A DNA stretch of 62,529 nucleotides from Chitinophaga pinensis (lineage in GTDB: Bacteria > Bacteroidota > Bacteroidia > Chitinophagales > UBA10324): positions 1 to 62,529 of the forward strand of contig CAMDOA010000009.1 in assembly GCA_945903305.1 (NCBI GenBank), read 5' to 3'. The position numbers were made by a program, and so were the translations under genes. Of this stretch, positions 27,240 through 30,848 are shown one piece after another. Each line of letters starts with the position of its first letter. Within the stretch, counting starts at the first letter, position 1. Under the pieces are notes generated by a model that saw nothing but the letters and a program-made list of their open reading frames with translations, did no database searches and was not told the DNA's origin.

Positions 27240-29069
27240 TTATTCTTTTACAAATTGTTTTATCAAAACACTTCCATCATTTTTTCTGATGGAAATAAAA
27301 TATTGAGCTGCGGATAAATTGCTCACATCAATTGTGTTTGAAGATTCTTCAATTGTTTCCTTGGAGAAAATAGTTCTGCCAAGCAAATCTTTTATTTCTA
27401 TTATATCACCTATAGAAAAATCTGATGTAACGGTCAGCAGTTGCGAAACCGGATTCGGATAAATAATAAAATCAATAGTTGCATTATCCATGCTTTCATC
27501 TTCCATGCGAAGCGGAGTGCTGAATGTGCTGATTGCTGTCCACGGTGAAGTTGGAATGCCTGATGCATTGCAAACAGTTTGCATTCGGTACTGATAAGTG
27601 GTATTTGCTGTTAAACCATTTAATTGTTTAATAGTGAGAGGCGCAATAATGGTGTAGGTAGTCCATGCAGTGGTTCCGAGTTTTCTACCTGAAAATTTAT
27701 AAGAGTATGCATTGGCAACCGCAGCCCAATTAATAGTTGCATGTATTGGTGTCAGGTTCGAAATTGTTATACCGGTCGGTGCCACACAACTAACGAGTGT
27801 TGTAAAAGTTTGTATCGGCGACCAGGATGAATAAGTTGTTCCATCAGTGCATTTAACTCTCATGCGTATATCATATGTGGTAACCGGAGATAATGCAGTT
27901 AAGTTTTTTGAAGTTGCAGTTGCTACTGCTGTAACAGTACTCCATGTAGTTGTGCCGGTAATTCTTCTCTGAATTTGAAACTGCGAGCAACACTCAGTGC
28001 TCCAGTTAACTTTTGCTGATGTGGATGTAATGTTTGAAGTTGAAATGCCTGATGGAAAAGTGCAAATACAAATTGGCATATTGTCAATTTGAGAAATGAA
28101 GCCTGTATGTTGAATGACATTGGGAAAGCAAGTAATTCCTGTGCCTGCAATATCAAAATCAGAAGATGAACCAGTAAAATTTTGTAATACTGGCATGCAC
28201 TTTATTTCCGAATTATAGGCTATCTCAAATTTAGTCATTGTTGGAGGTAATTGAGGTAAACTTTTTAAATCATTATTCGGACAATACAAATCAATCAAAG
28301 AGTTTGGTAAGGCAGGCAACGACAAAAGATTATTATTCTGGCAATGGAGTTGAATCAAAGAGTTAGGAAGATTTGGTAAGCTTTGAAGATTATTAGAATG
28401 ACATGCGAGATATTGCAAATTGGATGGGAGAGCAGGTAAACTTTGAAGATTATCATATTGGCAATATAACGCGACCAAATTATTGGTTAGTACAGGTAAA
28501 TTAAAACTGGGATTATGTCCGCAACCAAGAGATTCAACATTTTCCAAAGGTGGTAACCCACCAAGATTATTATCAGAAACATCTAACCATATAAGACTTG
28601 GTGGAATAGCAGGAAAACTTGTAAGATAATTCGAAGCACAGCCAAAATCATATAATGAAGTAGGCAATGGCGGTAAACTTGTTAGATTATTATAAGAGCA
28701 CGCTAAAGTTACTATTGAATTTGGGAGGTTAGTGAAGTTTGAAATTTGATTGCTGCTGCAATCAACTATTGTAATTGAATTTGGAAGCTCAGGAAGAAAT
28801 GTTAATTGATTTGAACTACAATCCAATTGCCACAGATTTACAAAATAATGAATTCCTGTTAAGTCAGAAATATTTTGACCAGAGCAATTAACAATCATTT
28901 CATTCACAATATCACTGCAAGAAGTATTCATCTGATTTCCATTCATACAAGAAGGATAATATGTTTGAAGAAATGCAACAAAATTCGCATCCGGAATTGT
29001 AACCCACTGCGCTTTACAAAAAGAGAAAGAGAAAATAATAAGTAGAGTTGCAAGAATTTTTTTACTCAT
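27240..29069 (-). CDS. Secreted leucine-rich-repeat protein with two FN3 domains and T9SS sorting domain
   Basis: After a signal peptide (ending CKAQ) and a short cap, about ten short LRRs of the bacterial LPx type run from residue 65 to 300. The pattern is LPxLPxSLxxLxCxxNxLxS, with a cysteine in almost every repeat. Two fibronectin-III-like domains follow (about 340-425 and 430-520: WSTVTAVATATSKNLTALSPVTTYDIRM, TTYQYRMQTVCNAS; ends WSTV and CNAS). The T9SS domain closes it (IYPNPVSQLLTVTS to SAAQYFISIRK). It is likely a surface adhesin or binding protein. Confidence 0.88.
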   Translation of the reverse strand: MSKKILATLLIIFSFSFCKAQWVTIPDANFVAFLQTYYPSCMNGNQMNTSCSDIVNEMIVNCSGQNISDLTGIHYFVNLWQLDCSSNQLTFLPELPNSITIVDCSSNQISNFTNLPNSIVTLACSYNNLTSLPPLPTSLYDFGCASNYLTSFPAIPPSLIWLDVSDNNLGGLPPLENVESLGCGHNPSFNLPVLTNNLVALYCQYDNLQSLPALPSNLQYLACHSNNLQSLPNLPNSLIQLHCQNNNLLSLPALPNSLIDLYCPNNDLKSLPQLPPTMTKFEIAYNSEIKCMPVLQNFTGSSSDFDIAGTGITCFPNVIQHTGFISQIDNMPICICTFPSGISTSNITSTSAKVNWSTECCSQFQIQRRITGTTTWSTVTAVATATSKNLTALSPVTTYDIRMRVKCTDGTTYSSWSPIQTFTTLVSCVAPTGITISNLTPIHATINWAAVANAYSYKFSGRKLGTTAWTTYTIIAPLTIKQLNGLTANTTYQYRMQTVCNASGIPTSPWTAISTFSTPLRMEDESMDNATIDFIIYPNPVSQLLTVTSDFSIGDIIEIKDLLGRTIFSKETIEESSNTIDVSNLSAAQYFISIRKNDGSVLIKQFVKE

Positions 29070-29156: not shown

Positions 29157-30848
29157 TCAACACCCCACAGAAACAAACTCAAACTTCTTCCCGCTGAACA
29201 AACCTTTATCGCTCAGTTTCAAATCAGGAATCACGAGCAATGCCATGAATGAAAGAGTCATGTATGGTGCATTCAGTTTGGTTCCAAGTTGTTTGGCGAA
29301 TGCATCAATGGAAGAATAGTTTTCTGCTACTTCGTAAGCATCAGCATTGGTCATGATGCCTGCAACAGGCAATTGAAGAATTTTATCGGTTACACCATCA
29401 GTAGCTGAAAGTCCACCCTTAGATTTTATAATCAGATTCACTGCACGGCAAATGGATTCATCATCAACACCCACACAAATAATATTATGCGAATCATGAC
29501 CAACGCAGCTTGCAATGGCTCCGCGTTTCAATCCGAAATTTTTTATGAATGCTATGGCAGCTGGCGAATTGTTGTAACGATTCAACACAGTGAGTTTTAA
29601 AATATCGCGTTCCAAATTGCTCACAATAAATCCGTTATCAGTTTTTGCATCACCAATAATTTCATTGGTAATTAACTGACCTTCGAGTGCTTCAATTACT
29701 CTTATACTTTTCGCGCCGTTTGATTTCAGTTTAAAATCTTTTGGATTTTTTTCGGTGCAATTAAAATTGTTAATAATTTTTTCCTCCACACTTTCAATTA
29801 AACTCTTACAGTTCAAGCCTCGGCGCGTGTCCTCACGCGCCGAAACTTTCGGTTCGTGGAGACACGAACCGAGGCTGTTGTTTTCAGCAACCAGCTTTCC
29901 ATGAATAAAAGTCTGATGCACATTAAAATCTTTCAAGTCATTCACTAAAATAAAATCGGCGCTATCCCCTTCACACAATAATCCATGATTGAGATTGTAA
30001 TGTGTGTGCGCATTCAAGCAAGCAGCACGCAACACATCAAATAAATCAAAACCCTTCTTCACAGCACGACTAACCAATTCATTAATGTGACTCACCACCA
30101 AATCATTCGGATGTTTATCATCAGAACAAAACATAATCTTATCAGGATATTCTTTCAGTAATGGAATCAATGCTTCAAAATTTTTCGCCGCGCTTCCTTC
30201 ACGAATCAGAATTTTCATTCCGTGTTCTGCTTTAAATTTAGCTTCTTCATAAGTAAAGCATTCGTGGTCGGTGCTTATTCCGGCGCTTATATATTTCAGG
30301 GCTTGTTCACCTGTTAATCCCGGCGCATGACCATCAACAGGTTTATTTAATTTATGTGCAGCCGCAATTTTCTTTTTCACTTCTTCATCATAAAATAAAA
30401 CGCCCGGCCAGTTCATCATTTCGGTCAGGTACTTTATATCGTCCCTCTGCAATAATTTTTCTACTGCAATAGAATCCAACTGTGCCCCCGCAGTTTCAAA
30501 CCCGGTTGCCGGCACACACGATGGCGCTCCGAAGTTGAACCAGAACGGAACCTTGTTTCCATTTGCAATCATGTACTCCACTCCTTCCACTCCCATCACA
30601 TTTGCAATCTCGTGCGGGTCACTGACTGTGGCAACTGTACCATGCAAAACTGCAAGCCGTGCAAACTCCGATGGAATGAGCATACTGCTTTCAATATGAA
30701 TGTGTGCATCAATAAATCCGGGGAGAATAAATGTTGAGTCTGCTTTTTCAACCCTTGTGATTGAAATTATTTTATCGCCTTCAATAATTATTTCAGCAGG
30801 AAATATTTCTCGATTATGGATGTCAACCAATTGACCTGTGATTTTCAT
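29157..30848 (-). CDS. ade: Adenine deaminase
   Basis: It converts adenine to hypoxanthine and ammonia in purine salvage. It has an amidohydrolase fold with metal ligands in [16 protein letters not shown] (about 44-59), [39 protein letters not shown] and [10 protein letters not shown], all typical of Ade. At 563 residues it is close to the E. coli enzyme. Residues about 315-345 ([25 protein letters not shown]) are encoded by a perfect double-hairpin element and look inserted in frame between [10 protein letters not shown] and [10 protein letters not shown]. The insertion is in a linker before the C-terminal domain and need not destroy activity. Confidence 0.94.
29816..29876. repeat. Double-hairpin palindromic element inside adenine deaminase gene
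   Basis: Hairpin 1 is CGGCGCGTG-TCCT-CACGCGCCG (29821-29842). Hairpin 2 is CGGTTCGTG-GAGA-CACGAACCG (29850-29871). Outer arms AGCCTCGG (29816-29823) and CCGAGGCT (29869-29876) enclose both. The GC content is far above the surrounding gene. It is read through in frame. Confidence 0.8.

Follow-up and report, generated by a model that had tools for sequence, protein, structure and literature searches.

A gene for adenine deaminase, ade, in the window (the whole 62,529-nt stretch of DNA analysed here) is interrupted by a short block of palindromes that is read as protein. This raises the question of what the block is, how it came to lie inside a coding sequence and what carried it there. The block is 59 bp long and reads GCCT-CGGCGCGTG-TCCT-CACGCGCCG-AAA-C-TTT-CGGTTCGTG-GAGA-CACGAACCG-AGGC, two inverted units with feet outward (Table 1). 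Its two perfect 9-bp hairpins with 4-nt loops are as the preliminary description gave them, and it is GC-rich in an AT-rich gene as stated there (66% GC, versus 39% in the remainder of ade). That description also saw perfect 8-bp outer arms and, through them, a potential three-way junction. The arms, AGCCTCGG/CCGAGGCT, are present at 29816-29823 and 29869-29876, but their inner three bases are the same CGG/CCG that closes both hairpins; arms and inner stems therefore cannot form a full three-way junction, and at most five outer pairs are left beside the hairpins. Folded as single-stranded DNA, the element reaches −28.9 kcal/mol (z = −6.65), a value equalled by none of 200 shuffles. The pattern of the second hairpin, with up to three mismatches, occurs at a single place in the window and not once in 100 shuffles; no further unit was found elsewhere in the window at up to eight mismatches, and the window has no Rfam match at the gathering threshold. 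Intrinsic terminator scoring marks positions 29847-29874 as terminator-like on the plus strand, antisense to ade. Elsewhere on the minus strand, positions 27240-29069 encode a 609-aa protein that by eye has leucine-rich-like repeats and an end resembling a C-terminal sorting domain.

Table 1. Positions of the host gene, the insertion and the parts of the element in the window
Feature	Position	Strand	Basis
Host gene ade (adenine deaminase, 563 aa)	29157..30848	-	Open reading frame; TIGR01178, 602.7 bits (cut-off 472.5); PF13382, PF01979
Inserted DNA, approximate extent; net 69 bp (23 codons) versus empty relatives, ends ambiguous by a few bases	29808..29879	-	Codon view and protein alignment
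Codons of insert-encoded residues 325-347	29808..29876	-	AlphaFold2, alignment
Element, doublet (REPIN-like): two inverted 29-nt units and a 1-nt spacer	29817..29875	.	Sequence, other copies
Unit of stem type C: foot GCCT, stem CGGCGCGTG/CACGCGCCG, loop TCCT, tail AAA	29817..29845	+	0 mismatches to C consensus
Unit of stem type F: foot GCCT, stem CGGTTCGTG/CACGAACCG, loop TCTC, tail AAA	29847..29875	-	1 mismatch to F consensus

The element is translated in the ade frame without a stop, as first noticed. Five of the six frames of its core are open; because at least five are also open in 1184 of 5000 shuffles of these letters, we rejected open frames as a mark of coding selection. The residues that it encodes, suspected from the outset to be extra, are missing from 79 of 81 ade proteins (the window's and 80 relatives from the species collection). 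The two bearers are the window's own protein and a second sequence (L200) consistent with the G015 locus. Here G000 denotes the window's own genome, in 138 contigs, and G011 to G015 the other five genomes of the genus. A smaller alignment gave the same picture, with ten of twelve rows lacking the insert and G015 filled at the same site as the window genome. The G015 insert is five codons longer and includes a partial duplication. Since G000 and G015 are the closest pair in the ade set (87% nucleotide identity, 73% at third codon positions), one insertion in their ancestor suffices. An AlphaFold2 model of the protein, built on a 28-row alignment, has a mean pLDDT of 89.9 and a sole stretch below 50, residues 326-345, which sits between predicted strands 318-323 and 347-349. 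The model agrees with an extra loop between two strands and, for ade, with the earlier suggestion that such repeats may be tolerated in linkers.

Between G000 and G015, five of the 59 core bases differ, while 27% of third codon positions do (P = 0.0004); set against the whole-gene difference of 13%, the same count is unremarkable (P = 0.20). Of the five, the changes at positions 12 and 19 face each other in a single stem pair. Because of the contrast with third positions and this pair of partner changes, one may ask whether something now actively preserves the hairpin in the coding region, be it selection on the structure of the DNA or mRNA, repair templated by the hairpin, or conversion among copies; we think this unlikely.

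We now turn to the copies outside ade. The preliminary description expected them, and at E ≤ 0.001 the family has matches in all six genomes of the genus: 22 in G000, 17 in G015, 11 in G011, three each in G012 and G014 and one in G013. From the fetched loci, rather than from whole genomes, we listed 66 elements, 54 single units and 12 doublets with inverted units and outward feet. One doublet is counted twice, at two contig ends (C72 and C129), and its removal leaves 65 elements with 11 doublets. All 12 listed doublets of the genus join an F stem (CGGTTCGTG) to a C stem (CGGCGCGTG), and 49 of the 54 single units are F. Pairs of unlike stems occur in G055 and G165 too. A rule of obligate unlike stems was nevertheless dropped, as both sides of a longer-spaced, partly decayed pair in G156 carry TTC stems.

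Across 82 gathered units, 59 of them distinct, the foot is GCCT in 66 and the tail AAA in 69, letters that the search pattern favoured. The named stem pairs in 92.3% of cells. Changes on both sides of a pair fill 22 cells, compared with 4.2 in shuffles, and none of 500 shuffles reaches 22; the covariation score exceeds all shuffles, and two of five covariation measures lie within them (reached by 34 and 138 of 500). The pattern fixed the base and the top of the stem and left three middle pairs free, and these pairs hold 20 of the 22 double changes. The counts support a stem held as structure through two-sided change; related units share ancestry, so we attach no probability to them. Among 78 units, the bases upstream of the foot are often T at −5 (52 units) and −4 (59) and C at −2 (38) and −1 (37); this bias reflects either a preferred target or sequence belonging to the element.

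One doublet, found at unlike loci in G000 and G014, is identical over 60 of 60 bases, while third positions of their ade genes are 68% identical; this suggests that either the doublet spread after the two species split or its copies have been kept alike by homogenisation. At the level of the order, 15 of 298 genomes and 8 of 140 genera carry the family at E ≤ 1e-4, with at most three candidates scored per genome; the ten other family members within this search gave no match at that threshold. In the class, two of 395 genomes match at E ≤ 1e-5, with at most two candidates scored, namely the window's genome and G630.

Which enzyme, if any, moves these units? A family of palindromes may have no transposase of its own, as described for the CGTC repeats, and spread by slippage, template switching or recombination. 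Searches with PF01797 at first spoke for such an orphan family: among 18 matches in the six genus genomes, all viewed, and 30 viewed of the 41 in nine others, the motif found no close GCCTCGG unit, and the neighbours of these Y1 transposases are mostly other palindromes. Some copies also resemble replacements or local duplications. In G011 (contig C41, L071 684-1500), the left unit and the first RAYT codons are doubled in tandem, over 189 bp. Candidates that the motif did place near Y1 genes were set aside one by one. At L030 it found GGTTCGTG alone, with no hairpin called; L107 has a real unit, about 800 bp away with a likely open reading frame between; and the matches at L135, L139, L144 and L157 contain no hairpin unit by eye.

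The PF01797 route gave a false absence of a partner, however, because this profile misses the relevant group. A class-level search led to units around the start of a transposase in G630, and a profile of its group, FYTATI, found matches in 15 of 16 genomes, at 30 loci. With it we identified five RAYT (Y1 transposase) genes in five genera that have units on both sides (G011, G630, G055, G067 and G266), the kind of partner that the preliminary description proposed to look for. In a tree of 28 rows, these five form one clade with support 94/89, below treekit's starred class; 22 rows outside it have no units, and one further row has a single variant unit at a contig end. L307 and L308 were omitted from the tree, and L030 and L107-L113, which have no profile match, were not included. 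The flanks vary in quality. The G630 gene has stem letters TCTGTG on both sides and one flank without the GCCT foot, the two flanks of the G055 gene have unlike stems, and the G266 gene on C146 has one in-frame stop. A variant unit beside another G266 gene (C163, L148) was missed by the motif and caught by eye, and a loose hairpin scan also flagged unrelated hairpins in L285, L294 and L307. The G011 RAYT is intact at 183 aa, with motifs NHIH, FWQRD and YIHNNP; it has no Pfam match, passes NCBIfam NF047646 narrowly (80.7 against 80 bits) and weakly resembles the E. coli TnpArep 4er8 (E = 0.022). The five unit-flanked genes in one clade make an orphan family decidedly improbable.

In the window's own genome, the RAYT survives beside units as fragments, one on C37 (79% identity over 103 aa) and one on C2 near 108.1 kb (70% over 27 aa). 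Further fragments lie beside units on G015 C5 (74% over 38 aa) and G014 C8 (65% over 34 aa); the identities are to the G011 protein, the closest among 11 RAYTs compared. Two fuller RAYT matches in G000, C56 and C2:26872, fall on neighbouring branches outside the unit-flanked clade and have no family unit beside them. As that clade is represented in G000 only by fragments, it is doubtful that units still move there, unless another RAYT acts on them; C56 and C2:26872 could in principle do so. Single units and doublets, we infer, may be deletion products of an element of the form unit-RAYT-unit.

Other palindromes accompany other transposases in these genomes. In G000 (C14:24904-25245 and flanks, L030 1090-2780), a different Y1 transposase lies amid CCGCCGACTTTAGTCGGCGG and GGCTAAAGCC palindromes, an arrangement that looks like a second REP/RAYT system of this genome. 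Another Y1 group, of 191 aa with REKDGIYFLTSTIVGW, is found in G014 (L114, L115) and G012 (L116, L119) with its own flanking palindrome GCTCGATTTGCAATCGAGC and variants.

We next consider where the units have landed. That the family can land in genes, as had been supposed from the ade copy, is borne out by alignment for 14 of the 66 listed elements. They occupy at least six sites in four genes, inherited copies being counted once per species. For the remaining 52, the judgement rests on open frames; some of these lie near starts and are uncounted. In a G015 sulfatase-fold protein (PF00884), a doublet adds 26 aa at a site that is empty in all seven aligned relatives. In a metallo-beta-lactamase-fold (MBL) protein of G015 (PF00753), two single units add 13 and 7 aa and are absent from all 11 aligned relatives, those of G003, G008 and G009 being left out of the alignment. 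The fourth gene encodes a membrane protein that matches nothing in Pfam or NCBIfam. Its site 1 holds one unit common to four species, with near-zero net length change versus G002. Its site 2 holds, by eye, 3, 2, 1 and 0 units in G015, G000, G012 and G011; the element list omits one of the G015 units, which is too diverged. Three different translated readings are in use, SLGSxPHEPK, SVREETNRG and PRFVSSRTE. At the start of a VWA-like protein (so judged by eye), four species have a family unit (L021 1440-1600 in G000:C10, L069, L094 and L095) that adjoins repeated TCTGAGCTTGTCGAAG blocks with a signal-peptide-like reading.

The junctions of these copies bear on a further explanation, in which the element is a MITE belonging to an ordinary DDE insertion sequence, bounded by terminal inverted repeats and flanked by target duplications. 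The ends of the element are inverted repeats, and the sulfatase-fold insert lies, by eye, between near-direct repeats ATAATGAGTTTG/ATGATGAGTTTG of 12 bases with one mismatch, as such an element would leave. The same repeats count against the RAYT route in the chemistry of insertion that it would imply, as an IS200-like mechanism does not predict them. The ade and MBL inserts, judged by eye, have no clear target duplication, however; the element has two internal hairpins instead of simple ends, and the gene found between units is a Y1 RAYT. We regard a MITE as very improbable. Junctions are not uniform across copies: one MBL unit replaced about nine bases by eye, and both this site and membrane site 1 have the look of replacements in which little net length, if any, was gained. 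The other MBL unit (L176 1108-1938, G015:C72) is followed by GATCATTT, which is repeated slightly downstream, as if by template switching. That the block never moved, being instead a loop long present or selected in this lineage of ade, or else an artefact of assembly, is scarcely credible: the core's deficit of changes relative to third positions would fit constraint and vanishes against the gene-wide rate, most homologues lack the insert, the same block stands at many other places, and a separate genome, G015, is filled at the same site.

We are thus left with a RAYT-associated REPIN family with a GCCT foot, spread by its RAYT, of which one copy was inserted in frame in ade, and we hold this reading with considerable confidence. 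The ade block would be a single copy of a small mobile element that is non-autonomous and consists of two inverted REP units. Most simply, it entered ade in the ancestor that G015 shares with its sister, the window's species. It would have been kept because it happened to be in frame, free of stops in that frame and placed in a loop between two strands, where a working ade protein could accommodate it. Its spread was most likely in trans, by a Y1 HUH transposase (RAYT) like those of the Bacteroidetes subclass 2.6; such an enzyme would recognise the hairpins of the units in single-stranded DNA. The case offers a Bacteroidota REPIN/RAYT pair with empty, filled and altered gene sites across six congeneric genomes, and with it a natural test of how REP transposases insert and of how often a 59-bp hairpin becomes protein. 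It is also a natural test of how long such a family persists beyond its transposase, with one intact gene in G011 and fragments in three other species.

Comparison with published systems places the family near several of them. Literature searches, including one combining REPIN, RAYT and Bacteroidetes, did not find this GCCT-foot family or three of its unit strings, nor a REP report with Chitinophaga. The kind is known, however, since intragenic REPs are already in print (PMC3733652). As in the REPINs and RAYTs described in PMC3116915, REP units here form inverted pairs, singles stand beside doublets, a RAYT adjoins units and copies are scattered. The family differs from that description, which concerns extragenic space, in its GCCT foot, 1-nt spacer, 59-bp length, 22 matches and copies in frame in genes. 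Among intragenic repeats, it resembles the GTAG and CGTC REPs, including Rickettsia RPE-4 and RPE-6, in having units and dimers in genes that contribute 20 to 30 residues, the dimers often of unlike units (PMC3733652); Di Nocera and colleagues describe such heterodimers there and suggest that they may escape removal. It falls outside the GTAG super-family by its foot, GCCT. The CGTC super-family is described with a foot of CGTC, TGTC or CCTC, an AT-first stem 8-9 bp long, tails that are mostly CCA and no transposase (PMC3733652). Our units share with it a stem of nine and a loop of four, and CCTC can be read across their foot; they are placed outside it by a stem that starts with CGG, a tail of AAA and the RAYT found here. 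Rickettsia RPE-1, as cited in the same paper, is likewise a palindromic repeat translated in frame in unrelated proteins, as seen here in four genes at no fewer than six sites; going by its description, it is longer. The enzyme has its likeness in TnpA-REP subclass 2.6, which corresponds to Bertels group 5 and is mostly from Bacteroidetes (PMC6006769). The available account of this subclass gives no foot, doublet form or intragenic copies, and the comparison is by motifs and length: NH[LIV]H, WQ, YIH[QN]NP and 179 aa there, NHIH, WQ, YIHNNP and 183 aa in the G011 RAYT, whose motifs agree with those of subclass 2.6 / group 5. Genes of that subclass are, moreover, reported to lie between 'atypical secondary structures' that recur elsewhere in the genome (PMC6006769).
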